A stretch of DNA of 52,513 bases from Clostridia bacterium (GTDB taxonomy: Bacteria; Bacillota; Clostridia; Christensenellales; Aristaeellaceae). The translations under genes and the position numbers were made by a program. The notes beneath the pieces are model-generated. The model saw nothing but the letters and a program-made list of their open reading frames with translations. It did not search any database and had not been told where the DNA came from. Each line of letters starts with the position of its first letter. The first letter of the stretch is position 1. Where the stretch lies: contig JAFWEJ010000013.1 of assembly GCA_017512985.1 (NCBI GenBank), forward strand, positions 95,695 through 148,207, in the 5' to 3' direction. This document shows, piece by piece, positions 33,118 to 47,001 of this stretch.

Positions 33118-33819
33118 TCACCAGTCCACCTCTTCCACCGACAGCGGATTCTCCTGTTCTTCACAGGATTTGATCTTTCCATTCTTCACCCGGATCACCA
33201 CGTCCGCCATCTTCGCGATGTTCTGGTTGTGCGTTACGATGATGATCGTCTTGCCCATGTCCCTTGCCATGGAAAGCAGGAGCTTGAGCACCATGACGCC
33301 GGTTTCGGAATCCAGCGCGCCGGTGGGCTCGTCGCACAGCAGGATGTGGGGATTCTTTGCCAGCGCCCGGGCAATGGATACGCGCTGCTGTTCGCCGCCG
33401 GACAGTTCAGACGGGAACTGGTGGATATGATCCTCCAGGCCGACAGCCCTGAGCATATCATGGCTGGAGAGCGGATTCGGCGCGATCTCCTTTACCAGCG
33501 CCACATTCTCCACCACCGTCAGGGTCGGGATCAGGTTATAGCTCTGGAAAACAAACCCCACGGAAGCGGCACGGTATTCTGCCAGTTCGTTGGGCGTCAG
33601 GGTGGAGATGTCCCTTCCGTTCACAACGATCGTACCTTCCGTGGGACTGTCCAGGCCGCCGAGCATATTCAGCAGGGTGCTCTTGCCGGCACCGCTGGGG
33701 CCCAGGACCACGATGAACTTCCCTTCCTCCAGGCTCAGGTTCACATGATCCAGTGCCCGCTGTTCATGTTCGCCGTTCTTATAAACTCTTGATACATCCT
33801 TGAATTCCACAATAGCCAT
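33118..33819 (-). CDS. ABC transporter ATP-binding protein (LolD/MacB-type)
   Basis: 233 residues, ATG 33819 with AAGGAG upstream. Walker [11 protein letters not shown]-loop in [11 protein letters not shown], signature [15 protein letters not shown], Walker [13 protein letters not shown] and H-loop VTHN are intact. It drives the FtsX-like permease encoded downstream. The promoter (33955-33983) has two GTTAG-N6-CTAAC palindromes between it and the gene (33933-33948 and 33855-33872), so a TetR-type repressor is the probable controller. Confidence 0.92.
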
Positions 33820-33854: not shown

Positions 33855-33872
33855 GGTTAGTTATATCTAACC
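33855..33872. promoter_or_regulatory. Putative TetR operator A (GGTTAG-N6-CTAACC)
   Basis: An 18-bp palindrome in the 5' leader of the MacB-like operon, ~36 bp before the ATPase start codon. Same half-sites as at 33933, 37538, 41428 and 46973. Confidence 0.65.
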
Positions 33873-33932
33873 TCTATGTTTAAGAAAAATCGCGCTTATG
33901 ATTCAACGGCTATCAACCGCGCGATTCCTCGT

Positions 33933-33983
33933 GTTAGCTTCTGCTAACGTTTGCATTTTATCATCCTTGTTTGATCTTGTCAA
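33933..33983 (-). promoter_or_regulatory. Promoter plus TetR operator B of the MacB-like operon
   Basis: Minus strand TTGACA (33983-33978), 17-nt spacer, TAAAAT (33960-33955). The palindrome GTTAGC-N4-GCTAAC (33948-33933) follows 6 bp after the -10 box and covers the start site. Confidence 0.75.
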
Positions 33984-34046
33984 CCCTTTCGATTATAGAA
34001 AACGGGATGCCGTTTTCCGGCATCCCGTTCGGGTGTTATACAAGAC

Positions 34047-35777
34047 TTACGCGATCTTCCAGGAAGCGGCTTCTTCTCTGAGCTTTATGAAGCTACTGTA
34101 TCTCTCGCTGCTTCTGAGCAGTTCTTCATGTGTACCGCTGCTGATCATTCCCCCGTCAAGTACCACAATCCGGTCGGCATTCCGGATCGTCTTGAGCCTG
34201 TGGGCGATCATGATTACCGTCTTATTTTCAGTCAGGGCGTCAAAAGCAGCGATCAGTTTATCTTCATTCTCAGGATCCACGTTGGCGGTTGCCTCATCAA
34301 GGATAATGATCGGAGCGTCTTTCAGGATGGCCCTTGCAATGGATATCCTTTGTTTCTCACCTCCCGAAAGCGTCGCTCCGCCTTCACCGATTACGGTGGA
34401 ATATCCCTCCGGGAGCGTCATGATAAAATCATGGCAGCACGCCTTTTTCGCAGCAGCTACAACTGCTTCATGGCTTGCGTTTTTCATTCCGAACTTTATA
34501 TTGTTTTCAATCGTATCCGCAAAGAGATAGACATGCTGGAAAACCACGCTGATCTGTGACATGAGGCTTTCCAGCGTATAGTCCTTTACATCCCTGCCGC
34601 CAATGGAAATGCTTCCTTTGTCCACATCCCAGAAGCGCGCGATCAGCATAGCCAGCGTTGTTTTGCCCGCGCCGGATGAGCCGACAAAGGCAGTCATGGT
34701 ATTTTCCGGGATCTCAAGGCTTATATCTTTTAACACCTCGTTGTCGCCGTAAGAGAATGACACATGATCAACCTTTATCCCGTAATGCTCCGGATCATAC
34801 TCTTTGCCGTTTTCATCCATGACCGGGAGGGTATTGATCTTCTCGGCTTCCTCTATGGAGCTTGTAACCACCCTCAGAACGGTAAGCCCCGCCCCGGTCT
34901 GCTCGATATCGGCGAAAACCTGGAAAGAGATGATCACTGCCATCAGAGCATATGTGATCGTCATGTTCCCGGTGATGAAGAAAGCCACCGCCGCAAGCAG
35001 GAACAAAGCTTTGAACGCGCCCAGGACAATCCCCTGGACCTCCCCGTAAGGGATGAACAGCCTTTCCATCGCCAGATTGCTGTCTCTGTTGCCGTCGATT
35101 GCTTTTTTCAGGGCGTCATCACCTTTACCGGTCAGGTTAAAGGATTTGATCACGCTCATCCCCTGAAGGCTTTCCAGCACCCTGGATACCAAGAAAGCCT
35201 CATTTCTCTGCCTTACCGGAGATAATGCCCGGCTCTTCTTTTCCATGGATGATGTGATCAGTATATAAATGACCATGCCGACCAGATCGATCAGCCCCAG
35301 CCGCCAGTCGAAGAATATGATGCAGATCAGGAATACGACAGCATTCATCAATCCGCTGAGGATCTGCACCAGGACATTCGCACCCTGATTCTCCACAACA
35401 TCCAGCACGGTCGTCGCGATACCGGTTGCCTCATCGAGATTGCTGTCATTGAAATATCCCATCGGGACCTTCTTCAGCCTTTCCGCGATATCGAGCCGCT
35501 TGTAAGCGCTCATATAGTAGCCCGCATGAACAGCCTGAAGATCCGCCGCCTGTTTCAGGATGAACTGTCCTATGATGCTTATGGCCAGGAATACAAGCGC
35601 TGTCCAGGCGGGTTTCATTGTCTGTTCTCCTGCGTCAAACGCCAGAAGAACATAATAGATCGCTGCCATTCTGAACATCGAAAACAGGGACCTGAAAAAA
35701 GAAAGGATGACTGCCCGGTAGATTTTTGTCTTTTCCCGTCCGGAAAAGTCTGTGATTTTTCTGATTGCCTCGATCAT
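34047..35777 (-). CDS. Heterodimeric ABC exporter half, pair 1 subunit B
   Basis: 576 residues: one exporter-type membrane domain of six TMs (~1-310) fused to an ATPase domain. Walker A GSSGAGKTT, signature LSGGEKQRISIARAI, Walker B IIILDEAT with catalytic Glu and H-loop AHRL are present. The start ATG overlaps the stop of the upstream half by 4 nt (ATGA), giving balanced translation of a heterodimer. Similar to the half encoded at 43272-45002. Closest recognisable types are the YbtP/YbtQ-like or multidrug exporters of Clostridia. Substrate unknown. Confidence 0.9.
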   Translation of the reverse strand: MIEAIRKITDFSGREKTKIYRAVILSFFRSLFSMFRMAAIYYVLLAFDAGEQTMKPAWTALVFLAISIIGQFILKQAADLQAVHAGYYMSAYKRLDIAERLKKVPMGYFNDSNLDEATGIATTVLDVVENQGANVLVQILSGLMNAVVFLICIIFFDWRLGLIDLVGMVIYILITSSMEKKSRALSPVRQRNEAFLVSRVLESLQGMSVIKSFNLTGKGDDALKKAIDGNRDSNLAMERLFIPYGEVQGIVLGAFKALFLLAAVAFFITGNMTITYALMAVIISFQVFADIEQTGAGLTVLRVVTSSIEEAEKINTLPVMDENGKEYDPEHYGIKVDHVSFSYGDNEVLKDISLEIPENTMTAFVGSSGAGKTTLAMLIARFWDVDKGSISIGGRDVKDYTLESLMSQISVVFQHVYLFADTIENNIKFGMKNASHEAVVAAAKKACCHDFIMTLPEGYSTVIGEGGATLSGGEKQRISIARAILKDAPIIILDEATANVDPENEDKLIAAFDALTENKTVIMIAHRLKTIRNADRIVVLDGGMISSGTHEELLRSSERYSSFIKLREEAASWKIA

Positions 35778-37519
35778 TACGCTGCACCTCCTTCACTGAT
35801 ATGCGCCTTCCACATTGCCTTATAAAGAGCACTCCCTTTAAGAAGCTCGCCATGGGTTCCCGAGCATTCGACCGTGCCGTTGTTGATCAGCACGATCTGG
35901 TTTGCGTTCGTAACCGTAGAAAGCCTGTGGGCAATGATGATCACCGTTTTATCCCTCATTAATTCAGTAAGCGCCCGCTGTATAACGGCCTCATTTTCCG
36001 GATCAATATAGGCCGTCGCTTCGTCAAGGATCACGACAGGAGCATTCTTCAGCATAGCCCTGGCTATAGCGATCCGCTGACGCTCGCCGCCCGACAGGCG
36101 GGTTCCGCCGCTTCCCACCCTGGTCTCATACCCTTCCGGAAGGGCTGTTATGAATTCATCACAGCCGGACGCTTTGGCTGCTTCTCGAACCATTTCATCA
36201 GAAGCCGATGTCTTTCCCATACGGATATTATTCATGATCGTGTCGTCAAACAACCAGTTGTCCTGCGATACATACGCCACCTGATCATAGAGCTGTTCAA
36301 GCGGGATCGATCTCAGGTCTTTTCCGTCCATCCTTACCGAACCGTCTGACACATCCCAGAATCCGCCGACAAGCTTGGCGATCGTTGATTTCCCGCTTCC
36401 GGAAGGGCCGACAAGCGCGGTAAAGCTTTTCTCCGGAATTGTGAGATTGATATGGTGAAGGACTTCTTCACCTTCGTGATAAGCATAGTTGACGTCGCAA
36501 AACGCTATGTTGTGCGTTGCAAACTGAACCGGGGTTTTCGAATGCTCCTGTTCTTCACCGGCCAGCAGCTTATCCACCGTAGCCACGGTAGTCGCTACTT
36601 TTGCGGATGAATCTGTAAACTGGACGGCGGTGAGGATCGGTCCAACAATGCACATGGAAAGCATGATCGAAGTCATGAAAACCTCTGCGGAAATACTGCC
36701 GGAGATATACATCCACCAGCCGATCGGCAATACCGTGATTAAGGTGCAAGGCGCGATCGTATAGCAAAGTGACTGGTATACTTCTGTTTTCTTCATCCAC
36801 CAGCAATAGAAGGAAGCGTTCGCAAGAACCTTGTCTTTGAATTTCTGGTACGACGATTTACCCTGGCTGTAAGCTTTGATCACTTCGATCCCGTGTACAT
36901 ATTCAACGATGCTTGCGTTCATGTCCTGAGTGATCTCCACGGACTTCCTGTAATCCTCGGAATAGGTGCGGGCGATAAAGCCGAAAAACATCAGGCCGAC
37001 CGGTACTGAAATCAGGCATATGAGTCCCATCCTCCAGTCAACGGCCATCATATAAATCCAGACAGCAACGGCGCCGATGATATTGGAGGTGAGTTCCGGG
37101 ATCATATGGGCTATGGGACGTTCCATCCGCTCAACTTCATCAACAATGATCTGCTTGAGCTTGCCGCTGGAAGTATCGATGATTGTGCCCAGGGGCATTC
37201 TGGGAAGCTTGGCAAGGATCTGCTTGCGTATCTCCCCAAGCAGGGAAAAGGTCGCCTTGTGGCTGACGCTCAGTCCCATTGCATAAAAGAGGCTCTTCAA
37301 AGCAAAACCTGCGAAGGCTGCCGCCACATATACAAGATAGTAACTCCATTCCCTGTTTCCGGATATCATTCCCGAAATAATCCTTGCCGCAGAAACAAAA
37401 GGAACAATCCCGGATACAACGCCTAAAACTGCCAGTATGACAGACAGCAGCAGCCTGCCGTGTTCAGGCTTCGCGATCTCCCAGATTCTAGCCATGGGAT
37501 TTGACTTTTGTTTTTCCAA
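35777..37519 (-). CDS. Heterodimeric ABC exporter half, pair 1 subunit A
   Basis: About 580 residues from TTG 37519 (GGAGG 10 nt upstream; ATG 37495 is an alternative). Six TMs (~15-310) precede an ATPase with Walker A GPSGSGKST, signature LSGGERQRIAIARAM, Walker B VVILDEAT and H-loop AHRL. Both ATP sites of the pair therefore look competent. A GGTTAGC-N4-GCTAACC palindrome (37538-37555) lies directly before the ribosome binding site, where it could act as DNA operator or RNA hairpin. The tetR gene upstream on the same strand ends 83 bp away. Confidence 0.9.
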   Translation of the reverse strand: MEKQKSNPMARIWEIAKPEHGRLLLSVILAVLGVVSGIVPFVSAARIISGMISGNREWSYYLVYVAAAFAGFALKSLFYAMGLSVSHKATFSLLGEIRKQILAKLPRMPLGTIIDTSSGKLKQIIVDEVERMERPIAHMIPELTSNIIGAVAVWIYMMAVDWRMGLICLISVPVGLMFFGFIARTYSEDYRKSVEITQDMNASIVEYVHGIEVIKAYSQGKSSYQKFKDKVLANASFYCWWMKKTEVYQSLCYTIAPCTLITVLPIGWWMYISGSISAEVFMTSIMLSMCIVGPILTAVQFTDSSAKVATTVATVDKLLAGEEQEHSKTPVQFATHNIAFCDVNYAYHEGEEVLHHINLTIPEKSFTALVGPSGSGKSTIAKLVGGFWDVSDGSVRMDGKDLRSIPLEQLYDQVAYVSQDNWLFDDTIMNNIRMGKTSASDEMVREAAKASGCDEFITALPEGYETRVGSGGTRLSGGERQRIAIARAMLKNAPVVILDEATAYIDPENEAVIQRALTELMRDKTVIIIAHRLSTVTNANQIVLINNGTVECSGTHGELLKGSALYKAMWKAHISEGGAA

Positions 37520-37537
37520 AATAAATACGCCTCCTTC

Positions 37538-37555
37538 GGTTAGCAATAGCTAACC
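37538..37555. promoter_or_regulatory. Putative TetR operator C (GGTTAGC-N4-GCTAACC)
   Basis: A perfect 18-bp palindrome just 5' of the AAGGAGG of exporter pair 1. It is the best-conserved copy of the motif in the window. No clear promoter was seen between it and the tetR terminator-like hairpin. Confidence 0.7.
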
Positions 37556-37564
37556 ATCGTTTGA

Positions 37565-37602
37565 TAAAAACCGCCTTCTCTTTCAGTATGTCAGGGAAGG
37601 CG
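37565..37602 (-). terminator. Possible terminator or attenuator after tetR-1
   Basis: Minus strand CGCCTT / AAGGCG stem (loop of ~19 nt) followed by GTTTTTAT, directly after the tetR stop. The stem is short, so readthrough into the exporter genes is likely. Confidence 0.4.
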
Positions 37603-38214
37603 TCAATATCCGAAGAATTCTCCCCAGCCCTTGGAGAAGAAGCGGTCCAGGGTGTCCGCGTAATGCATGGCTTCCTCCCGGGTAAAATCATGCTCTACCG
37701 CCTGGAACACCGCATTAACATTGGCCGTGACCAGTAAATGAAGTTCCCTTTCGCAGAATTCATTGATCTTCATGCCATGCTTTTTAAGCATGTTCATAAA
37801 ATAAAGGGTCGTTTCCTCCCCCAGCGCGGCCAGGTCATGGAGGAAGCTTTCATACTTTGTGCCCTGGGATTTGCAGATGATCAGGCGGAAAGCATCCAGG
37901 TGATCATAAATGTAGGAAATCGCGAGCCTTGCGTCCTGCCCCGCCTCCAAGGCACTTAAATCGCCTGTTCCGACAAACTGCTCCTGGTCATCTGCCTCAT
38001 GCCGATAGATATTGATCAGCCCCTGGTAGGCAGGTTCAACCAGCGCGGCGAACATTTCCTCCTTACTGGGAAAATGCTTATACAGGCCGGAGGCGCTCAT
38101 CCCCGCTGCCGCTGCGATCCGGCGCATAGAGGCGTCCGCGAAGCCATAGGTCATGAACTCCCGCCGGGCTGCTTCGATGATCTGCTCATGATGGGCGTTC
38201 TTATCCCTCGGCAT
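37603..38214 (-). CDS. TetR-family regulator 1
   Basis: 203 residues from ATG 38214, with GGAGG 7 nt upstream; the TTG at 38232 would place the binding site inside the gene. The N-terminal HTH is RRIAAAAGMSASGLYKHFPSKEEMF (residues ~28-53 region), and the C-terminal ligand domain is helical. It shares GTKYESFLHDL and an ending FFSKGWGEFFGY with the second TetR (GTKYENFLHDL, FFLPGWKNLFGF), so the two are paralogues. A different long inverted repeat (38240-38284) overlaps its own promoter, which suggests autorepression. Upstream of exporter pair 1 on the same strand. Confidence 0.9.
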   Translation of the reverse strand: MPRDKNAHHEQIIEAARREFMTYGFADASMRRIAAAAGMSASGLYKHFPSKEEMFAALVEPAYQGLINIYRHEADDQEQFVGTGDLSALEAGQDARLAISYIYDHLDAFRLIICKSQGTKYESFLHDLAALGEETTLYFMNMLKKHGMKINEFCERELHLLVTANVNAVFQAVEHDFTREEAMHYADTLDRFFSKGWGEFFGY

Positions 38215-38239
38215 TTCGCATCCTCCTTCCAATGCATAA

Positions 38240-38295
38240 AAGCGAACACTGTACGCTACGTTCGATAGAATACAGTGTTCGCTTCAGTCTGTCAA
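38240..38295 (-). promoter_or_regulatory. Promoter of tetR-1 with 14-bp inverted repeat operator
   Basis: Minus strand TTGACA (38295-38290), 17-nt spacer, TATTCT (38272-38267). Perfect arms AAGCGAACACTGTA (38240-38253) and TACAGTGTTCGCTT (38271-38284) bracket the -10 box: one lies in the spacer, the other over the start site. Confidence 0.8.
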
Positions 38296-38355
38296 TGCTT
38301 TATGAGGTAGTTTTCCAAACAAGTCAGGATCGGACAAACGTCTTTTCTGAAGATC

Positions 38356-39507
38356 TCACGTTTCCGCAAAATCCATGTCCATGGCGACCTGTAGCTGATA
38401 ATCCGGGAAAACCTGCTGCACGTCGGCAACCACTTCCGTATAGACCTCCCTGCGGTCTCCGGCGATAAAGCTGATGACCACGTCAAAACGCATGGTTTTT
38501 TCATCCTGATCCAGATAGAAACCATGGATCTGCCGTACATGTTCATGGGAAAGGGCGATTTCCCGCACTTTCTCCCGGATCCTGATGTTTTCCTCATCCT
38601 TTGTGTTGACGGAATATACGCCGATTGCCGTCAGGATTACCCGGTGTTCTTTGAACACCTCGCTCTGGATATTCCGAATCAGCCGGTCCAGCTGGTCTGC
38701 CGTATACGTATCCGGAACCTCCACATGGATGGATCCGTTCCAGTTGTCCGGCCCGTAGTTATGGAGGACCAGATCGTAAGCTCCCTGCACTTCCGGGAAT
38801 TGTTTGACAGTCTGCTTTATACGGTTTACCAGATCCGGATCATTCGGTTCCCCGAGGATCTGGGAGATCGTATCGCGCAGCATCTCAACGCCGGACTTGA
38901 TGATAACAATGGAGATAACAGCGCCGAGCCAGGCTTCCAGCGATATATGGAACATCAGGAAGATCCCGGCTGCGACAAGCGTGGATGCGGAGATCACGGA
39001 GTCCAGTATGGCGTCCTTTCCTGAATTGATCAGGGAATCGGAGTTGACTTTTCCCCCTGTTGCTTTTACATAGCGGCCCAGCAGGATTTTAACCACGACT
39101 GCCACGGCAACGATGATCAGGGAAACAGCGCTGTAATCCGGCGTTTCAGGATGAATGATCTGCTTTACGGATTCCACAAAGGAGGTAATACCCGCATACA
39201 GCACGATCACGGAGATGACCATGGTGCTGAGATACTCGATTCTTCCGTATCCGAAGGGATGCTTTTTGTCCGGTTTCCTGGCCGCCAGTTTCGTTCCGAC
39301 AATCGTGATCAGGGAACTGCCCGCGTCGGAGATGTTGTTGACCGCGTCCAGCACGATAGCGATCGAGTTGGACAGCAGGCCGATCACCGCTTTGAACGCG
39401 GCAAGGAACACATTGGCAATAATCCCGATAATACTTGTTCTGACAATCGTTTTCTCACGGGATTGTTCGTTATTTTCTTTCAGCGGTTCTTCCGGAATAC
39501 GGTTCAA
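38356..39507 (-). CDS. Cation diffusion facilitator transporter 2, probably Mn-type
   Basis: About 383 residues. The start is TTG 39507, 7 nt after GAGG; a TTG at 39513 is too close to the binding site. It has the same six-TM plus cytoplasmic domain plan as the CDF gene at 1013-2134 and is strongly similar throughout. TM2 is DAVNNISDA (N57, D61) and TM5 KDAILDSV (DxxxD). The N/D-D/D quartet again points to Mn rather than Zn. It is the last gene of the Gpx-flavodoxin-CDF operon, which makes a role in oxidative stress or Mn balance reasonable. Confidence 0.87.
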   Translation of the reverse strand: MNRIPEEPLKENNEQSREKTIVRTSIIGIIANVFLAAFKAVIGLLSNSIAIVLDAVNNISDAGSSLITIVGTKLAARKPDKKHPFGYGRIEYLSTMVISVIVLYAGITSFVESVKQIIHPETPDYSAVSLIIVAVAVVVKILLGRYVKATGGKVNSDSLINSGKDAILDSVISASTLVAAGIFLMFHISLEAWLGAVISIVIIKSGVEMLRDTISQILGEPNDPDLVNRIKQTVKQFPEVQGAYDLVLHNYGPDNWNGSIHVEVPDTYTADQLDRLIRNIQSEVFKEHRVILTAIGVYSVNTKDEENIRIREKVREIALSHEHVRQIHGFYLDQDEKTMRFDVVISFIAGDRREVYTEVVADVQQVFPDYQLQVAMDMDFAET

Positions 39508-39516
39508 ATGCAAGCC

Positions 39517-39927
39517 TCATTCCATAATCGATTTGGCAAATAGTGCCGCTGCCTTCAGGTCATCCGCATCCGGTTTGCCTTTATGGATGCCTTTGAATTC
39601 ACCTTTGCAGTGGAATTCCCGCTTGTCCATCTGAATTCCTGCCTTATCAGCTTCTGCTTTGACTTTTTTCCAGGTGGAATTCATCATCGCAGCGGAACCG
39701 AAATTCACGATCCGGCTCACCCGTTTCGGATCCAGAGCCCGGATGAAATCCCGGACTTCCGGATCGATGGTGAAGGCGTAATAAGAGTTTCCGAGGAAAA
39801 GGATATCCACAGGCTCGTCAATGGGTATACTGATCGGCAGGGCTTCCGCGCCCACCGCTTCAGCCACCGCCTCCGCAAGACGTTTTGTGTTACCGGTTTT
39901 GGTGTAGTATCTGACTGCGACCTTCAT
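39517..39927 (-). CDS. Flavodoxin-like protein
   Basis: 136 residues, short-chain flavodoxin fold. The FMN phosphate loop is YTKTGNTKRLAEAV (residues ~8-21). A second loop, FLGNSYYAF, lies where flavodoxins contact the isoalloxazine ring. The C-terminal segment FHCKGEFKGIHKGKPD contains one Cys, as in small flavodoxin-family reductases. Located 41 bp after the Gpx gene, with the CDF gene 9 bp downstream, so one transcript. It could donate electrons in peroxide defence; the partner is unknown. Confidence 0.85.
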   Translation of the reverse strand: MKVAVRYYTKTGNTKRLAEAVAEAVGAEALPISIPIDEPVDILFLGNSYYAFTIDPEVRDFIRALDPKRVSRIVNFGSAAMMNSTWKKVKAEADKAGIQMDKREFHCKGEFKGIHKGKPDADDLKAAALFAKSIME

Positions 39928-39968
39928 TTCAGGTATTCTCCCTTCTGCTCATACAGCCTCAGCTGTCC

Positions 39969-40514
39969 TCACAGCGCGGCCGCCACCGCGTCTCTGACTT
40001 CCTTCATGTCCACGGTGGGCTCAAACCGGGCGATCACCTTGCCTTCGCGGTCCACCAGGAATTTGGTGAAGTTCCACTTGATATAGGCTTTCTCACCGAA
40101 CTTTTTATTGTTCATATCCGCGAACTTGCTCAGTGCTGCCATCTTCAGGCCCTTGCCGAAACCTTCAAATGGCTTTTCGGTCGCCAGATATGCAAACAGC
40201 GGATCGGCAGTTTCCCCGTTCACGTCGATCTTGGCAAACTGCGGGAATTCCGTACCGAACTTCAGCGTGCAGAACTGATGGATCTCATCGGCATCTCCCG
40301 GCGCCTGATTGGCAAACTGATTGCAGGGGAAGTCCAGAATTTCCAGTCCCTGATCCTTCATTTCCTTATACATCGCTTCCAGGGGCTCATAGTGAGGCGT
40401 GAATCCGCAGCCGGTGGCCGTGTTGACAATCAGCAGCACCTTTCCCTGGTATTCTGACAGGTTGACCTCCTTCCCCTGTCTGTCTTTTACTGTGAAATCA
40501 TAAACCGTTTTCAT
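39969..40514 (-). CDS. Glutathione peroxidase family protein (Cys type)
   Basis: 181 residues, thioredoxin fold. Peroxidatic Cys36 in NTATGCGFT, then FPCNQFANQ (Gln and a possible resolving Cys64) and IKWNFTKFLVD (Trp/Asn), so the catalytic tetrad is complete. Bacterial Cys-Gpx enzymes usually take electrons from thioredoxin. ATG 40514 has AAAGGAG 9 nt upstream. TTGACA and TATAAT occur upstream with an over-long 21-nt spacing, and an AT-rich near-palindrome overlapping them could bind a peroxide regulator of PerR type, though that is weak. First gene of a three-gene operon. Confidence 0.92.
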   Translation of the reverse strand: MKTVYDFTVKDRQGKEVNLSEYQGKVLLIVNTATGCGFTPHYEPLEAMYKEMKDQGLEILDFPCNQFANQAPGDADEIHQFCTLKFGTEFPQFAKIDVNGETADPLFAYLATEKPFEGFGKGLKMAALSKFADMNNKKFGEKAYIKWNFTKFLVDREGKVIARFEPTVDMKEVRDAVAAAL

Positions 40515-40687
40515 GATCGGTTTCTCCTTTCTGTTTGACGCGATTATATTTCATCAAATATTTAAAGGTTGTCAACCCCTTTCTGAAAAAAATAATGGGA
40601 TGCCGGCTTTTATCGGTATTACTTCATTGGAGAAGGATTTCGGGAGATATGTCCATGATTTTGATATTGACTTTTTAAATCGCTTGA

Positions 40688-40733
40688 TTGACAGATGAAA
40701 AAGAAAGATTTATAGTTTACTCCGTTAGCTAAC
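40688..40733 (+). promoter_or_regulatory. Promoter and compact operator of tetR-2
   Basis: TTGACA (40688-40693), 17-nt spacer, TATAGT (40711-40716). The palindrome GTTAGCTAAC (40724-40733) sits on the expected start site. Its half-sites match the GTTAG-N6-CTAAC family but without the 6-bp centre. Confidence 0.75.
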
Positions 40734-40755
40734 AATGTTTTCTTTTGGAGGATGT

Positions 40756-41364
40756 ATGCCGAAAGATAAAACCGCCAGCCATGTCAGGGTCATTGCCGCG
40801 GCCAGGGAGGAGTTCCTTGAATACGGTTTCGAAAAAGCTTCCATGCGCCGTGTCGGAGAGCGGTGCGGCTTAACTGCCGCAGGACTCTACCGGCACTGCC
40901 GGGACAAGGAGGATCTGTTTGATCAGCTGGCCGCGCCGGCTCTTGAACGGCTGAACGCCTGGATGGATGACCATCTGGCAAAATACCTGAACGCGGTCAG
41001 GGAACAGGAAGATCTCCGGTGGCAGGATTCCTGGATCGATATGATGCGTGAGGTCGTCTATCCCCATGTGGATGATTACCATCTGATCCTGACCTGTGCG
41101 TCCGGGACAAAATACGAAAACTTCCTGCATGACCTGACACAGGCCGCCCAGGAGAAAACGTCCGAATACCTTCCGGTTCTGCGGGAGAAGGGCGCCGCCA
41201 TCCGGGAAATCAGTCCGACGGAGCTCCATCTGCTGTTCAGCGCTTATGTAACAGCTCTGTTTGAACCTGTGATCCACCGTTATCCTCCGGACGAAGCGAT
41301 CCGGTGTCTGGAGACCGTGGAGGCCTTCTTTCTGCCGGGCTGGAAAAACCTCTTCGGTTTCTGA
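40756..41364 (+). CDS. TetR-family regulator 2
   Basis: 202 residues from ATG 40756 (TTGGAGG 6 nt upstream; ATG 40735 would contain the binding site). HTH: MRRVGERCGLTAAGLYRHCR. The helical ligand domain has the paralogue marks GTKYENFLHDL and WKNLFGF. GTTAGCTAAC operators lie on its own promoter and again before the exporter pair downstream, so this is the more likely owner of the GTTAG motif. It is 118 bp upstream of exporter pair 2 in the same direction, mirroring the tetR-1/pair 1 arrangement. Confidence 0.9.
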   Translation: MPKDKTASHVRVIAAAREEFLEYGFEKASMRRVGERCGLTAAGLYRHCRDKEDLFDQLAAPALERLNAWMDDHLAKYLNAVREQEDLRWQDSWIDMMREVVYPHVDDYHLILTCASGTKYENFLHDLTQAAQEKTSEYLPVLREKGAAIREISPTELHLLFSAYVTALFEPVIHRYPPDEAIRCLETVEAFFLPGWKNLFGF

Positions 41365-41419
41365 CCTGGTTCTGATCTGATGATACCGCCTGTTCCTTCA
41401 CCGGGACAGGCGATATGCA

Positions 41420-41462
41420 TACAATATGGTTAGTTAACGCTAACTTCTAGTCGTTAGCTAAC
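41420..41462 (+). promoter_or_regulatory. -10 box and tandem TetR operators E and F of exporter pair 2
   Basis: A TACAAT box (41420-41425, weak -35 TTCACC) is followed by GGTTAG-N6-CTAACT (41428-41445) and GTTAGCTAAC (41453-41462). The two spacing variants of the motif stand side by side. A hairpin CGCCTGT/ACAGGCG at ~41387-41412 may end the tetR-2 message. Confidence 0.7.
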
Positions 41463-41481
41463 AGAAAGTGAGGAGTATCAA

Positions 41482-43275
41482 TTGAAAGAAAAAAAGCAAG
41501 GTAAATCTCCGTCAGGCTTTGCGCGCCTGATGGAATACGCGGGTCGGTTCCGGACGCTGACCTATCTGTCTCTGATCCTGTCCGCCCTGAGCAGCGTGCT
41601 GGCGCTGATGCCTTTTGTCTGTATCTGGCGCATTATCCGGGAAGTGCTGGAAACACGGCCGGATTTCTCCCAGGCAACCGGAATCGTCCGTAACGGATGG
41701 ATGGCAGTGCTGTTCGCCGTCCTGGCTTGGATTGTTTATGTCAGCGCGCTGGTTTGTTCCCATGGCAGCGCCTTCCGGACGGCCGCCAACATGAAAAAGA
41801 CGCTGATGCGGCATATTGCCCGCCTTCCCATCGGTTTCGCGGATGAGATGGGATCCGGCAAAGTCCGCCGGACCGTAACGGAAGTCACCGGGTCCACTGA
41901 GACCCTGCTCGCTCACAACCTGCCGGATATGGCGGGCGCGATCACTATGCCCCTGTGCATGGTCGTGATGCTCTTCCTGTATGACTGGCGCTACGGCGTC
42001 GCCTGCCTGATCCCCGTCGTGCTGAGCTTTGCCGTCATGATGCGTATGGCCGGCCCGGCGATGCAGGAGGATATGCGGCTGTACCAGAATGCTCTGGAGC
42101 GCATGAGCAACGAAGCGGTGGAATATGTGCGGGGCGTACCGGTCGTCAAGACCTTCGGCCAGACCGTCTTCTCCTTTCACCGGTTCAAGGCGTCGATCGA
42201 CGATTACTGTGAATTCTGCATGCATTATACACGGATGATGCGCAAGTCCATGGTCGGATATATCGTGCTGATCAACAGCGCTTTTGTCTTCATCCTGGGT
42301 CTGACGCTGTTCCTGATCCGCGGGGATCACTATCAGATGGATATCCTGCTGAACTTCCTGTTTTATGTGATCTTCACGCCGGCCATCGCCACCACGATGA
42401 GCAAAGTGATGTTCATGAGCGAAAACAATATGAAGATCAATGACGCGGTGGCCAGGATGGACACGATCCTTAGCATTCAGCCCCTGGCGGAACCGGAACA
42501 CGGTCAGGAACCGGAAAGCGCAGCGGTGGAACTGAAGGACGTGACCTACCGGTACACACCGGATGCTTCCCCGGCTGTATCCCATCTTTCCCTGAAAGCG
42601 GAGCGCAATGGGATCGTGGCGATCGTGGGTGCCTCCGGCAGCGGTAAAACCACTGTTGCCGGTCTGATCTCCCGTTTCTTTGATCCACAGGAAGGCCAGG
42701 TACTTATCGGCGGCACGGATGTACGCCAGATCGCCAAGGAAACCCTGATGAAACATGTAGCCTATGTCTTCCAGGACAGCCGCCTGCTCAAGCGTTCCAT
42801 TGCCGACAACCTGCGCATCGCCAAGCCGGAAGCCACCGAAGCTGAAATGCTGGAAGCACTCAAAAAAGCCCAGTGTATGGATATTATCGAGCGGCTGCCG
42901 GAAGGACTCAATACGGTGCTGGGTAGCCGGGGAACCTATCTTTCAGGCGGCGAGCAGCAGCGGATCGCCATTGCCCGCGCCATGCTGAAAAACGCGGATG
43001 TGGTAATCCTGGATGAGGCAAGCGCCTTTGCCGATCCCGAATGCGAAGCGCAGGTCCAGCAGGCCTTCCGGGAAATGGCCAAAGGCCGGACTGTGATCAT
43101 GATCGCCCATCGCCTCTCAACGGTCCGCAATGCCGACTGCATTTATGTCCTGAAGGACGGCAGTCTGGAGGAACAGGGAAAACATGATGATCTGATTCAG
43201 AAAAACGGGCTCTATGCAGCCATGTGGGCGGATTATCAGAAAGCGGTCAGCTGGAAGGTAGGTGAAGAAGCATGA
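41482..43275 (+). CDS. Heterodimeric ABC exporter half, pair 2 subunit A
   Basis: 597 residues from TTG 41482 (GTGAGGAG 7-8 nt upstream). Six TMs (~20-320) plus an ATPase: Walker A GASGSGKTT, signature [15 protein letters not shown], Walker B VVILDEAS and H-loop AHRL. The N-terminus (KEKKQGKSPSGFARLMEYAG) mirrors that of the pair 1 subunit A, including the TTG start. Its stop overlaps the next start by 4 nt. Regulated by the E/F operators just upstream. Substrate unknown. Confidence 0.9.
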   Translation: MKEKKQGKSPSGFARLMEYAGRFRTLTYLSLILSALSSVLALMPFVCIWRIIREVLETRPDFSQATGIVRNGWMAVLFAVLAWIVYVSALVCSHGSAFRTAANMKKTLMRHIARLPIGFADEMGSGKVRRTVTEVTGSTETLLAHNLPDMAGAITMPLCMVVMLFLYDWRYGVACLIPVVLSFAVMMRMAGPAMQEDMRLYQNALERMSNEAVEYVRGVPVVKTFGQTVFSFHRFKASIDDYCEFCMHYTRMMRKSMVGYIVLINSAFVFILGLTLFLIRGDHYQMDILLNFLFYVIFTPAIATTMSKVMFMSENNMKINDAVARMDTILSIQPLAEPEHGQEPESAAVELKDVTYRYTPDASPAVSHLSLKAERNGIVAIVGASGSGKTTVAGLISRFFDPQEGQVLIGGTDVRQIAKETLMKHVAYVFQDSRLLKRSIADNLRIAKPEATEAEMLEALKKAQCMDIIERLPEGLNTVLGSRGTYLSGGEQQRIAIARAMLKNADVVILDEASAFADPECEAQVQQAFREMAKGRTVIMIAHRLSTVRNADCIYVLKDGSLEEQGKHDDLIQKNGLYAAMWADYQKAVSWKVGEEA

Positions 43276-45002
43276 AACGGTATCTGATGAAACGGTTTGC
43301 CCTGACGGAAAAAGGCGCCACGGATATGGCCAAAGCGATCCTTTCCGTAACGCTCTCGAACATTGCCCTGATGACGCCTGTCTGGCTCCTGTTTGTGTTT
43401 GCCGGGGATTACCTGGACAGCACGGCAGCCGGACGCTGGGCACATTATCTGCTGTTCGCAGCTGCCTGCCTGGTTCTGATCTTCCTCCCGAATTACTGGC
43501 AGTATAACGCCACTTTCTTTGCCACCTACATTGAGTCTGGAAAGCGGCGGATATCCCTGGCGGAAAAACTGCGGAAGCTGCCGCTGTCCTTCTTCGGAAA
43601 AAAGGACCTGGCGGACCTGACGAACACCATCATGGCAGACGCTGAAACCCTGGAGCACGCCTCTTCCCACCAGATCCCGCAGTTCTACGGCAGTCTGGCG
43701 TCTACAGTCCTGATCTGCATCGGCCTGTTCTTCTATAAATGGGAAATGGCCCTGGCAGCAGTCTGGCCGATCCCGATCGCCATTTTCATCGTCGCGGCAT
43801 CTCGGAAGGTACAGACGCATTTCATCCGCCGGCAGTCCGAATCCAAAGTCCGGCTGAACGACGCCGTGCAGGAATTTATTGAAACCTCGAGGGATCTGAA
43901 GAGCTGCAACGCGGAGGATGCTTATCTGGCTGAACTGGATGACCGGATCAATGATGTCGAGAAGAAAGCGATCGGTGCGGAACTGGGACAGGCTGCCTTC
44001 ATTGTTTCCGCCCAGCTGATCCTGAAGATCGGGATCGGGACGGTTGCGGTAGCCGGCAGCGCGCTGCTCCTGCAGGGGCGGCTGAATGTGATGGAATTCT
44101 TCTCCTTCCTGCTGGTTGCTTCCCGCCTGTATGAGCCCATGAGCGGCAACCTGATCAACCTGGGGATGCTGAACCTGCTGACTGTTCCGGTGTCCCGGAT
44201 GAATGAGATCACAGCCTGTCCGGAACAGACCGGAACAACAGACTTCCATCCAGACGGATATGATATCTGTTTCGAAAACGTGGCCTTCTCCTATGATCAG
44301 GACAAGACCGTCCTGAAAAATGTATCCTTTACGGCAAAGCAGAACCAGGTGACGGCGCTTGTCGGACCGTCCGGCGGCGGAAAGACCACCGTTTCCCGCC
44401 TTGCCGCGCGGTTCTGGGACGTCAGCAGCGGGCAGATCACCGTCGGCGGTCAGGATATCTCCGGCGTCGATCCGGAAACACTGCTTGGCGTCTATTCCAT
44501 CGTTTTCCAGGATGTCACGCTGTTCAACAACAGCATTCTGGAAAACATCCGTGTCGGTAAAAAAGAAGCAACGGATGACGAAGTACTGGCAGCGGCCCGG
44601 CTGGCCAACTGCGATGAGTTTGCGCTGAAGCTGCCCCAGGGATATGATACGGTCATCGGTGAAAACGGAAGCGAACTGTCCGGCGGTGAGCGCCAGCGCA
44701 TCTCCATCGCCCGGGCCTTCCTGAAAGACGCGCCGATCATCCTGCTGGATGAAGCCAGCGCCAGCCTGGACGTTGAGAATGAAACCGTAATCCAGGAAGC
44801 GCTCTCCCGTCTGATCCGGAATAAAACCGTGATCGTCATCGCCCACCGGATGCGCACGGTCAGCGGCGCGGACAAGATCGTGGTGCTGTCTGACGGAACG
44901 ATTGCCGAAGAAGGCCGTCCTTCCGACCTGTTCGCCCGGGAGGACAGCGCGTTCCGCCGAATGGCGCAGCTGCAGAGCGCCAGCGCCGAATGGAGCATCT
45001 GA
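43272..45002 (+). CDS. Heterodimeric ABC exporter half, pair 2 subunit B
   Basis: 576 residues, exactly the length of pair 1 subunit B. Six TMs, then Walker A GPSGGGKTT, signature LSGGERQRISIARAF, Walker B IILLDEAS and H-loop AHRM. It is coupled to subunit A by an ATGA overlap. A bidirectional terminator at 45015-45042 separates it from the converging ATC-hydrolase operon. Confidence 0.9.
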   Translation: MKRYLMKRFALTEKGATDMAKAILSVTLSNIALMTPVWLLFVFAGDYLDSTAAGRWAHYLLFAAACLVLIFLPNYWQYNATFFATYIESGKRRISLAEKLRKLPLSFFGKKDLADLTNTIMADAETLEHASSHQIPQFYGSLASTVLICIGLFFYKWEMALAAVWPIPIAIFIVAASRKVQTHFIRRQSESKVRLNDAVQEFIETSRDLKSCNAEDAYLAELDDRINDVEKKAIGAELGQAAFIVSAQLILKIGIGTVAVAGSALLLQGRLNVMEFFSFLLVASRLYEPMSGNLINLGMLNLLTVPVSRMNEITACPEQTGTTDFHPDGYDICFENVAFSYDQDKTVLKNVSFTAKQNQVTALVGPSGGGKTTVSRLAARFWDVSSGQITVGGQDISGVDPETLLGVYSIVFQDVTLFNNSILENIRVGKKEATDDEVLAAARLANCDEFALKLPQGYDTVIGENGSELSGGERQRISIARAFLKDAPIILLDEASASLDVENETVIQEALSRLIRNKTVIVIAHRMRTVSGADKIVVLSDGTIAEEGRPSDLFAREDSAFRRMAQLQSASAEWSI

Positions 45003-45014
45003 AAGCAATAAACC

Positions 45015-45042
45015 GCAGCCGGATCCGATTGGATCCGGCTGC
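45015..45042. terminator. Bidirectional terminator
   Basis: GCAGCCGGATCC-GATT... GGATCCGGCTGC, a 12-bp stem with a short loop and a TTATTTG tail, between converging genes. Confidence 0.8.
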
Positions 45043-45059
45043 TTATTTGATTCGTTTTT

Positions 45060-45692
45060 TCAGTTTTTCTTCTTGTACCCGCAGTCACAGTACGGGCCGC
45101 CGGAAGCCAGGGTGTAGGTCCGGATAAAGGTGTCCGCCCCGCCGATCTCGCTCATGGTGTAATCCAGCCGGCACATAGCCGGGGTCAGGTCAAACAGCCC
45201 CAGTTCCTTCATCAGCGTGCAGATGCCGCACTTCGTGAACCGGGCTTCATAGCCGCTGCCGTCGGCATAGGGATGATAAGTCATGTTCCAGGAATAGGGG
45301 TTCCGGTCAGCCGCCCTCAGGGCCGCCGTGGCTTTCATGCCGGCGATATCCTTTTCCGAGAACTTTCGTTTTCCGCCCATCCGGCAGAACTTCTTCATCG
45401 CGCCGGTCAGCATGGACTCCCGGTAATATGCTGTCGCATCCTCTACGGACGGCCTCTCCGGCATATTGAGGAAAAACGCGCACAGCATGGCGCAGCTGAC
45501 GATGTTCATTTTGAAGCGGTCACCCTTCTCAAACTCCGGCAGCTTTTCAATAATCTCCCGGTATCTCCCTTTGGCTTTGGCCGTAATGCTTCCGGCTGTT
45601 TCTGCGTCATACTTCAGAACAGTTGTCAGGTTTCTCCTGAAGGATCCGGCAAACAGCAGCCACATGCCGCCCGGCATACCCACGTATTTCAT
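45060..45692 (-). CDS. L-2-amino-thiazoline-4-carboxylate (ATC) hydrolase-like protein 1
   Basis: 210 residues. It resembles the ATC-hydrolase-like family common in Clostridia: a helical N-terminal half (CAMLCAFFLNMPERPSVEDA) and a C-terminal half with conserved Cys and Asp (FTKCGICTLMKELGLFDLTP, MCRLDYTMSEIGG, GGPYCDCGYKKK). The characterised Pseudomonas enzyme opens a thiazoline ring on the way to L-cysteine; other members have no known substrate. The ATG overlaps the methyltransferase stop by 4 nt. Third gene of the operon starting at 46943. Activity is a family-level inference. Confidence 0.7.
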   Translation of the reverse strand: MKYVGMPGGMWLLFAGSFRRNLTTVLKYDAETAGSITAKAKGRYREIIEKLPEFEKGDRFKMNIVSCAMLCAFFLNMPERPSVEDATAYYRESMLTGAMKKFCRMGGKRKFSEKDIAGMKATAALRAADRNPYSWNMTYHPYADGSGYEARFTKCGICTLMKELGLFDLTPAMCRLDYTMSEIGGADTFIRTYTLASGGPYCDCGYKKKN

Positions 45693-46297
45693 ACATCAAG
45701 CCTCCTCATCACAGCCACGGCGCAGGGAATCCGCCCTTCCGCCAGCGAGATTTTCACATCTGTATATCCGGCGTCGAGGAAAAACTGCTGATAGCTCTCA
45801 ACGGTAAACTGCCGTTTGAAATCAGCGCCCGCTTTCCCGATGACGGAGACAAACCCGCCGGTCTCCCCCTTCCGGTCCTTGTTCATATAGGTGGGGATAA
45901 TCAGCATGCCTCCGGGCCTGCAGACGCGGTTCAGTTCGTTCAGCGCCTTCATCGGCTCGTCCAGCAGGTGGATCACGTTCCCGGCGACCACCTTGTCGAA
46001 ACTGCTGTCCGGAAATTCCAGCGACAGGATATTGGCCTGCCGGAACTGCACATTCCTGTATGCGGCGCAGTTTTTCTCCGCCCGTTTCAGCATCTTCGGC
46101 GCAAAATCCGTTGCGGTAAGATGTTGGCATTTCCCGGCGATCACGGTGCTTAACAGACCGGTTCCTCAGGCGCACTCAAGCACAACGTCATCCGGATCGA
46201 TCAGATCAGCCACAATCCGGCGCAGCGCCTTGTGCGTTTTTCCGTTAACAACATTCACAAATAAATCGTATACTCCGGCAACCCTGTCCCAGAACAT
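45689..46297 (-). pseudogene. SAM-dependent methyltransferase with in-frame TGA in motif I
   Basis: One reading frame from ATG 46297 (GGAGGG 5-6 nt upstream) to TGA 45689 encodes a ~200-residue class I methyltransferase, interrupted only at codon 44 (TGA, 46168-46166). Reading across gives VLECA-stop-GTGLLS, i.e. motif I (ExACGTG) with TGA where relatives have a Cys codon. The rest is intact: LTATDFAPKMLKRAEKN, VVAGNVIHLLDEP, LNRVCRPGGMLIIPTY. A single point mutation is the simplest cause. Selenocysteine insertion is possible in principle, but the hairpin after the TGA starts only ~5-9 nt away, too close for a normal bacterial SECIS. The downstream gene is still coupled to its stop. Confidence 0.75.
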
Positions 46298-46340
46298 TGA
46301 ATCCCTCCGGTTTGCTCCGAAATGTTGGATATCCGCCTGC

Positions 46341-46943
46341 TCATATCTTTTTAAGATAGAAGTCGCAGCATTTGGCCCCTTTTCCGAGCGTTCCGGTCCG
46401 CTCAAATTTCAGGCCCGGCAGATTCCCATACACACGCTCGTCGTTTTCGCAGAAAATCTTTGTCAGTTCCGAACAGCCCAGCTCCGTGAAATGCCGGAAA
46501 TACGGACAGGATGTCACATCCATCCGATAGGCTCCTTTTTCTTTGGGATAAAAAACGTTCTTGAATCCGCTGTTTGATCCGAATATCTTCTTTGTCAGGG
46601 GATTCCAGAGTTTCACAAACAGGCCGCGCATTCCTGGAATCTTCATCGTCTTTTCCAGTTTCTTTGCCGTGCCCGCGCATCCCTTGATCGCCGCATTTTC
46701 GACAACAGCATATGCCTTCTTCTCTCCGAGTTCTTCCTTTACTGTCAGATAAACAGCTGCCGCGGGAAAAATCCTGCTGTCGGTGTGCATTCGTTCGCCC
46801 TTGGAAAGCGAACTGTGTCCGTTCAGAAAGGTTTCCAGCTTCTCAGTCGCCTTCTTCCACAGTTCGTCGCCGTTCCGGGTTTGTTTGTCCAGTTCGGCCC
46901 TCATCAGGCTTTTCTTTTCCATAATCTGTTCCGCCGCTGTCAT
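46341..46943 (-). CDS. ATC-hydrolase-like protein 2
   Basis: 200 residues. Start ATG 46943, 9 nt after GAAGGG. Same family as the protein at 45060: helical N-terminal half, then DVTSCPYFRHFTELGCSELTKIFCENDE and a C-terminal GAKCCDFYLKK with paired Cys. The spacing of Cys and Asp in the C-terminal half parallels protein 1. First gene of the three-gene operon; its promoter carries the GTTAG-N6-CTAAC operator at 46973-46990. Substrate unknown. Confidence 0.75.
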   Translation of the reverse strand: MTAAEQIMEKKSLMRAELDKQTRNGDELWKKATEKLETFLNGHSSLSKGERMHTDSRIFPAAAVYLTVKEELGEKKAYAVVENAAIKGCAGTAKKLEKTMKIPGMRGLFVKLWNPLTKKIFGSNSGFKNVFYPKEKGAYRMDVTSCPYFRHFTELGCSELTKIFCENDERVYGNLPGLKFERTGTLGKGAKCCDFYLKKI

Positions 46944-46972
46944 TTCATTCATCCCTTCACGATGCTTTGTGC

Positions 46973-47001
46973 TGTTAGTTACAACTAACAACCTGATTAT
47001 A
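46973..47001 (-). promoter_or_regulatory. -10 box and TetR operator G of the ATC-hydrolase operon
   Basis: Minus strand TATAAT (47001-46996, weak -35), then TGTTAG-N6-CTAACA (46990-46973), an 18-bp palindrome on the expected start site. Same half-sites and 6-bp centre length as the exporter operators. Confidence 0.7.

Follow-up and report, generated by a model that had tools for sequence, protein, structure and literature searches.

Within a stretch of 52,513 nucleotides from the genome of a Clostridia bacterium (assembly GCA_017512985.1, contig JAFWEJ010000013.1, positions 95,695 to 148,207; hereafter the window), the palindrome GTTAG-N6-CTAAC recurs in front of three ATP-binding cassette (ABC) systems and an operon of ATC-hydrolase family genes, which raises the question of which regulator reads it and to what signal. 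A sequence-only reading had proposed a TetR regulon of exporters under one operator. The genome scan and the promoters of relatives largely agree with a single operator common to the three ABC systems and the ATC-hydrolase operon, and a shared regulon is well supported. The palindrome is very probably the iron box of a short, MntR-sized repressor of the DtxR family, of the type represented by EqbA of Streptococcus equi, controlling iron uptake together with the window operons. Genes named drug exporters would then most likely be part of an iron-starvation response.

All five reported copies with a six-base centre, and both copies of a compact form lacking it, are present in the window sequence:

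33856-33871, no strand: candidate iron box GTTAGTTATATCTAAC, the nearer of two copies to the ABC ATPase gene.
33933-33948, no strand: candidate iron box GTTAGCTTCTGCTAAC, starting 6 nt 3' of the -10 hexamer of the ABC ATPase/FtsX operon.
33955-33983, minus strand: sigma-70-like promoter TTGACA-N17-TAAAAT of the ABC ATPase/FtsX operon, with 11 of 12 consensus bases.
37539-37554, no strand: candidate iron box GTTAGCAATAGCTAAC, which abuts the ribosome binding site of ABC pair 1 and has tetR1 on its other side.
40724-40733, no strand: compact palindrome GTTAGCTAAC, 7 nt after the -10 hexamer of tetR2; the spacing of 0 is not conserved in the genus.
41429-41444, no strand: candidate iron box GTTAGTTAACGCTAAC, 3 nt after the -10-like TACAAT, before ABC pair 2.
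41453-41462, no strand: compact palindrome GTTAGCTAAC, before ABC pair 2.
46974-46989, no strand: candidate iron box GTTAGTTACAACTAAC, heading the ATC-hydrolase operon 6 nt past TATAAT.

Pairs of the half-sites at spacers of 0-12 number seven in the window, against a mean of 0.10 over 100 shuffles. In three of the window operons (ABC ATPase/FtsX, ABC pair 2 and ATC-hydrolase) the box begins 3-6 nt after a -10-like hexamer, that of the ATC-hydrolase operon having been read by eye and being absent from the list of the promoter scan.

The genome (2,626,272 bases on 17 contigs, 89.67% complete; gene starts are those of the analysis's own gene caller) holds ten exact copies of GTTAG-N6-CTAAC, five of them in the window, against one of the reversed pattern, and three compact sites against one in the reversed control. 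The core TTAG-N6-CTAA occurs 14 times, five times in the window and nine times at three places on contig C17, and all 14 copies sit upstream of genes; contigs C7 and C17 together account for 11.8% of the genome. On C17, two core boxes lie upstream of a DtxR-family gene, DtxR_a (L011:8151-8522), one lies between the tetR gene of this contig (tetR3) and a half-size ABC gene (ABC3), and three lie between an AraC gene and a divergent iron-uptake run encoding FTR1, the Fe2+ transport protein P19, an FtrD-like protein, two FtsX permeases and, as read by eye, an ABC ATPase. Two further boxes precede a run of genes for DUF3793, a protein whose start is signal-like, DtxR_b and a methyltransferase. The last box heads another run, in which two ATC-hydrolase genes are accompanied by genes for a protein of the metallo-beta-lactamase fold, a methyltransferase and a ZIP transporter.

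Three copies with one mismatch lie outside the window and these places, including one 22 bp before feoAB (C1) and one on C6, 56 bp upstream of a third DtxR-family gene, DtxR_c. Iron-uptake genes under the box thus comprise the FTR1/P19 operon (exact) and FeoAB (one mismatch), and exact boxes stand before both in relatives. The remaining one-mismatch site (C4:37924) adjoins no iron gene, follows a tRNA-like stretch (by eye) and was taken as chance.

The three DtxR-family genes score above the PF01325 cut-off, and each is linked to the box, which is exact before DtxR_a, has one mismatch before DtxR_c and heads the operon that contains DtxR_b. When 84,980 genomes were scanned with DtxR_a, 255 relatives were confirmed, the best 80 of which were kept; they belong to Clostridia of gut and rumen, Lachnospiraceae, Erysipelotrichaceae, Oscillospiraceae and others. 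In the 699 kb near these 80 homologues, RTTAG-N-CTAAY occurs 61 times at spacer 6, and 0, 0, 1, 1, 0, 1 and 1 times at spacers 3, 4, 5, 7, 8, 9 and 10, respectively, and five scrambled versions of the half-site gave 0-2 sites compared with 33 for GTTAG. Most core sites (46/64) are no more than 1 kb away from the dtxR match, a region representing 26% of the bases (p about 1e-14), and the gene starts found beside boxes at these loci include those of FeoAB (26), AraC (13), DtxR (13) and FTR1 (9).

These regulators are short, measuring 119-125 amino acids in this genome and fewer than 135, counted from the start of the match, in 79 of the 80 homologues, and so have no SH3 domain. The closest protein by sequence is MntR (E 2e-20), and the NCBIfam MntR models score best yet stay below their cut-off. 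All 83 proteins (the 80 and the three of this genome) carry Cys at the position of MntR Glu99, equivalent to DtxR Cys102, none carries Glu99, and the ligands Glu102, His103 and His77 are present in every one; at position 8, 80 proteins have Asp and three have Asn, and at position 11, 82 have Glu and one has Lys. In DtxR, the Cys102 position has been tied to iron selectivity in the passages cited (PMC10317159).

The same residues bear on whether the repressor answers mainly Mn(II) or Zn(II), in a manganese or mixed-metal regulon. Its sequence is nearest to MntR, Asp at position 8 is MntR-like, the ZIP transporters under the box may carry other metals, and PgMntR of Porphyromonas gingivalis, which has the same ligand set, is described in the cited text as Mn-responsive (PMC4805248). 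Such a regulon is nevertheless unlikely, given the invariant Cys in place of Glu99 and the behaviour of EqbA, which shares that Cys and whose DNA binding, in the passages cited, is raised by Fe2+ or Zn2+, less by Mn2+, and not by Fe3+ or Cu2+ (PMC3672683). The named targets include the ferrous systems FeoAB and FTR1/P19, and no Mn-specific transporter was recognised at a box, 18 gene labels being unnamed. The metal is the least certain step of the iron-box interpretation because PgMntR, with its identical ligands, prefers Mn(II), and Zn(II) is a possible sensed metal.

Comparison with relatives shows that the box is a conserved feature of the genus, with 92 exact sites in 24 same-genus genomes against 28 reversed controls. 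Among the 65 of these sites that were examined, on 47 stretches from 15 genomes, none lies inside a called gene and 63 have a gene start within 400 bp. The adjoining genes were labelled HydA/NuoE-like (9), FTR1 (7), AraC (7), ZIP (6), window-type ABC ATPase (6), DUF3793 (5), MATE (4), ABC pair 1A (3), short FeoA (3), ATC hydrolase (3), FeoAB, flavodoxin, TetR1 and phosphoglycerate mutase (2 each), and DtxR, a signal-bearing protein, enolase and an XRE-type regulator (1 each), with 18 other genes; the labels FeoA, flavodoxin, HydA/NuoE, MATE, mutase and enolase are by-eye readings of the sequences. A recognisable promoter is present in 32 of 95 site-gene pairs, and 23 of these 32 boxes begin 0-9 nt after the -10 hexamer. 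The HydA/NuoE-like gene has its box approximately 90-150 bp upstream in nine loci (L069, L074, L078, L083, L092, L096, L098, L102 and L110), which suggests a hydrogenase-type operon under iron-dependent control, and the MATE, enolase and phosphoglycerate mutase genes of relatives carry boxes too.

The expectation that the same promoters would carry the sites in related genomes held for three of the window systems and failed for the fourth. A box lies within 250 bp upstream of 7/9 close homologues (82-97% identity) of the window ABC ATPase, 4/5 homologues of pair 1A (20 bp before the gene in L065, L093 and L103), 3/3 homologues of tetR1 and 3/5 ATC-hydrolase homologues of at least 66% identity (2/2 close to the second window ATC gene and 1/3 for the C17 ATC gene). 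These fractions are upper values because the loci were picked for holding boxes, and remote homologues (26-37%) are mostly without an upstream box. None of the three pair-2A homologues has a box directly upstream, although those of pair 2 in L066 and L093 lie within a box-headed operon.

Beyond the genus, the motif is enriched in some lineages of the class, with counts such as 20 against 0, 18 against 3 and 16 against 0; 22 class genomes have at least five sites and at least twice the control, and seven show the converse. In nine genomes picked by eye because they appear on both the motif and the feoB lists, a box precedes a feoB match by 29-31 bp in G082, G099, G152 and G187, and the nearest is farther off in the others. 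A Fur-family match is absent from 11 of the 16 genus genomes scanned, several of them incomplete, including G000 (89.67% complete), G001 (99%), G002 (98%) and G012 (93%).

Several results weigh against the iron-box interpretation or narrow its reach. Sites with up to two mismatches number six in the window against 8.7 expected, sites with up to one mismatch number 17 in the genome against 35 in the reversed control, and the eight-base core occurs 14 times against 27. As the loose-match and core counts are not above the reversed controls, the signal consists in location, exactness and conservation and not in abundance. The exact motif is hardly enriched in 16 same-order genomes (32 sites against 24 controls), nor overall in 148 class genomes (361 against 285); of the feoB loci from a search of 148 class genomes, 30 were fetched, three with an exact upstream box and nine when one mismatch is allowed, indicating that the box is distributed lineage by lineage and is not universal. 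An exact core site is present in 27 and absent from 53 of the best 80 dtxR loci, and lies within 300 bp upstream of the dtxR match in only 10, with none in the other 70. One of the three regulators, DtxR_b (L012:10547-10924, on C17), has Asn and Lys at two ligand positions that are usually Asp and Glu, and may be a metal-insensitive paralogue. In the genus, the first window ATC gene has no close homologue among the fetched loci, and five of the 16 genomes scanned carry one Fur-family gene. The spacer base next to the core, which is G/C in the classical box, is not kept here (G in 3%), and the palindrome required by EqbA exceeds the core, which was not assayed alone in the passages cited (PMC3672683). 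Finally, because PgMntR is Mn-responsive with the same ligand set, Mn or mixed-metal sensing is conceivable.

The low loose-match counts and the near-control totals across the class would also suit chance palindromes. This explanation is nonetheless negligible, in view of the seven exact pairs in the window, the position of every genome copy upstream of genes at few places, the recurrence before the same gene families in relatives and the 61 sites at spacer 6 set against 0-1 at each of seven others.

The tetR genes of the window, and the separate palindrome in the promoter of tetR1, are as follows:

37603-38214, minus strand: tetR1, with a TetR_N domain.
38242-38282, no strand: separate palindromic element GCGAACACTGT ... 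ACAGTGTTCGC in the tetR1 promoter, a probable TetR1 operator.
40756-41364, plus strand: tetR2, with a TetR_N domain.

If the boxes were operators of TetR2 and/or TetR1 controlling drug exporters, their position beside three tetR genes (two in the window and one on C17) would be explained, as would the compact GTTAGCTAAC held by the tetR2 and C17 tetR promoters. However, boxes also stand before feoAB, FTR1/P19 and dtxR genes without a recognised neighbouring tetR (in one-mismatch form at feoAB and DtxR_c), and the strict spacing is seen at the dtxR genes of many families. The tetR1 and tetR3 promoters, both of the form TTGACA...TATTCT, bear a different palindrome made of paired GCGAACASTGT-type elements, the C17 copy being at L011:14092-14133, and tetR2 has only the compact spacer-0 GTTAGCTAAC over its start. 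The compact form is itself rare in the genus, occurring in 3/25 genomes with five copies against 14 reversed controls; it is nested within a full N6 box in G016, and no box or recurrent gene was seen alongside it in G008. TetR is thus a very improbable reader of the boxes, which go with DtxR-family and iron-uptake genes.

The GCGAACASTGT palindromes are likely the TetR operators of tetR1 and tetR3. Among tetR1 orthologues, one such element is present in L065 and L103, L093 is without an exact match, and the iron-type boxes are found upstream as separate sites. The compact GTTAGCTAAC at L011:14115-14124 lies about as far after the tetR3 -10 hexamer as the 7 nt seen at tetR2, where N6 boxes sit elsewhere. 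Similar gene sets occur near a tetR gene and an iron-box ABC gene at two places: in the window (38356-40514), flavodoxin and glutathione peroxidase accompany a cation efflux protein, and the counterpart set comprises a MarR protein, a glutathione peroxidase-like and a flavodoxin-like protein on C17 (L011:16591-18035; the latter two by eye).

Under the iron-box interpretation, a metal-loaded repressor dimer would occupy the box at high intracellular Fe(II) and block transcription, the box mostly covering the transcription start just 3' of the -10 hexamer where a promoter is recognisable. We infer Fe(II)-dependent repression by at least one of the three DtxR proteins because of the precedents of EqbA and IdeR and because the position after the -10 hexamer is a repressing one. 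When iron is scarce, the repressor would leave, allowing FeoAB, FTR1/P19, the DUF3793-containing and ZIP-containing operons and the DtxR proteins to be made. The two YbtPQ/IrtAB-like pairs, the ABC ATPase/FtsX system and the ATC-hydrolase/methyltransferase operon of the window would be induced likewise, the ABC pairs most likely taking up a ferric siderophore or other iron chelate, and the TetR proteins possibly serving as local second inputs through their own operators.

The ABC genes under these promoters are:

30731-33025, minus strand: 764-amino-acid FtsX-type permease (Pfam FtsX, two stretches).
33118-33819, minus strand: ABC ATPase, LolD/MacB-like (Pfam ABC_tran; NCBIfam best LolD, DevA and MacB, below cut-off, among 25 models shown).
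34047-35777, minus strand: ABC pair 1 subunit B, half-size, with YbtQ as best match, narrowly.
35777-37519, minus strand: ABC pair 1 subunit A, half-size, IrtA/YbtP-like, with a TTG start after GGAGG.
41482-43275, plus strand: ABC pair 2 subunit A, half-size, YbtP-like, with PDB chain 6p6i_A as top half-size match (331.7 bits).
43272-45002, plus strand: ABC pair 2 subunit B, half-size, YbtQ-like, with YbtQ as top half-size PDB match (276.7 bits).

The description of these pairs as exporters is doubtful, as their half-size PDB matches are nearest to siderophore importers. A siderophore importer is the nearest solved half-transporter for all four subunits, clearly so for 1A, 2A and 2B, in a ranking limited to half-size chains (double-length eukaryotic ABCB proteins score higher in total). 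Subunit 2A scores 331.7 bits with 6p6i_A, which we take to be YbtP (its partner is named YbtQ), 288.6 with IrtA and 277 with YbtQ, compared with 240 for MsbA; subunit 2B scores 276.7 with YbtQ compared with 252.9 for TM288; subunit 1A scores 287.4 with IrtA and 282.7 with YbtP compared with 242.9 for Sav1866; and subunit 1B scores 260.4 with YbtQ compared with 252.5 for MsbA, a narrow difference. The Walker B glutamate is present in all four subunits, unlike the degenerate site of many heterodimeric exporters. Among the NCBIfam models shown for the ten proteins scanned, none is above its cut-off.

Import of a siderophore or chelate is most likely, and the better guess as to direction. Export induced by iron starvation, whether of drugs, haem or siderophore, is compatible with the iron box and is a lesser though substantial possibility: the fold is that of ABC exporters, MsbA, Sav1866 and TM288 match too, the pairs adjoin tetR genes, and the YbtPQ-like pair EqbKL of the eqb locus has been suggested to act in efflux, in the passages cited (PMC3672683). 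The C17 gene ABC3, which follows tetR3 (L011:14852-16393), was called at only 513 amino acids; its membrane-domain match is incomplete, it is not followed by a partner, and it is possibly a decaying gene.

The last of the window operons comprises:

45060-45692, minus strand: ATC_hydrolase family protein 2 (PF14196).
45689-46297, minus strand: methyltransferase gene with an in-frame TGA in motif I, the frame being open on both sides.
46341-46952, minus strand: ATC_hydrolase family protein 1 (PF14196), with an ATG start.

The ATC hydrolase family takes its name from an enzyme that opens an aminothiazoline ring. All four matches to this family in the genome sit in box-headed runs (L012:11954-16493 and window 45060-46952), and an alignment of ten members keeps three cysteines in 10, 10 and 9 of them. 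Motif I of the methyltransferase reads ECA*GTG, and the TGA may reflect a nonsense mutation or an error in the sequence; that it encodes selenocysteine is conceivable. A more speculative scheme, for which we would claim only a slim chance, is one of iron piracy, in which the YbtPQ/IrtAB-like pairs import thiazoline-type siderophores of other rumen microbes, the co-regulated ATC-hydrolase-family proteins, along with methyltransferases and alpha/beta hydrolases, alter or open the ligand within the cell and so free its iron, and an EqbA-type repressor has taken over from Fur as the global iron regulator of this lineage.

The box ties several families of unclear role, including DUF3793, the ATC-hydrolase-like proteins and the YbtPQ-like pairs, to iron, and offers a cheap finder of candidate iron-regulated genes in uncultured gut Bacillota. 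It would also correct a likely naming error, YbtPQ-like pairs being readily labelled multidrug exporters. A genus of gut Clostridia in which 11 of 16 scanned members lack a Fur match appears to run its iron regulon through a short EqbA-type DtxR protein. A review states, in the passages cited, that low-GC Gram-positive bacteria use Fur for iron and DtxR proteins for manganese only (PMC10317159). No title or abstract opening on such a regulon in Clostridia was found in the open-licence literature, and the parts of PMC9674144 and PMC7762939 consulted hold nothing that decides the iron-box question.

Among solved and described relatives, MntR of Bacillus subtilis is the closest solved protein and agrees in size and most ligands, differing in Glu99, which is Cys here, and in that the targets here are those of iron transport. 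PgMntR shares the mixed ligand set of Asp, Cys, Glu and His; according to the cited text, it differs in carrying two FeoA domains, its DNA binding is improved by Mn(II) and released by high Fe(II), and it was not seen at the feoB1 promoter (PMC4805248). In the IdeR/DtxR proteins of Actinobacteria, TTAG-N6-CTAA is likewise a one-dimer site lying over the start or the -10 hexamer of iron targets (PMC8464063, PMC10317159, passages cited), and one IdeR dimer can bind the half-site TTAGGNNNNCCTAA, of the same 4-6-4 geometry (PMC8464063). The boxes of the present genome differ in having outer G/C instead of TTAGGNNNNCCTAA, the proteins are short and MntR-like with Asp and not Met in the primary site, and the classical 19-bp double box of actinobacterial type, TTAGGTTAGSCTAACCTAA, is not reproduced here. 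The window ABC subunits resemble YbtPQ and IrtAB in their top half-size matches, paired genes and iron-linked promoter, and differ in that Pfam lists no ferric-reductase domain and a tetR gene adjoins. The FTR1/P19 run has the gene types of FtrABCD-like systems under boxes in one run; it lies on C17, another contig, outside the window.

The closest known system is EqbA with its operator, a close precedent against which the earlier remark that no described system of this composition was known has to be set. In the passages cited (PMC3672683), EqbA, encoded on ICESe2 of Streptococcus equi, is a DtxR-like repressor without an SH3 domain and with the DtxR-type Cys, which requires for binding a 36-bp palindrome whose core, GTTAGATGTATCTAAC, is exactly GTTAG-N6-CTAAC and likewise lacks the classical inner G. 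Deletion of eqbA raised the eqbE transcript 13-fold and increased iron accumulation, and the eqb cluster is likened in the same paper to one in Clostridium kluyveri (PMC3672683). The long outer arms of the eqb palindrome are not kept here, and the regions read showed no recognisable siderophore non-ribosomal peptide synthetase, no whole-genome search having been made. The likeness extends to the missing SH3 domain, the Cys, the operator core, the control of iron acquisition and a YbtPQ-like pair in the locus, while one siderophore operon on a mobile element in S. equi contrasts with many chromosomal promoters here, among them feoAB, FTR1/P19 and ATC-hydrolase. As both its operator and its type of repressor have a precedent in EqbA, the present regulon would be a chromosomal, genome-wide case of a known type.

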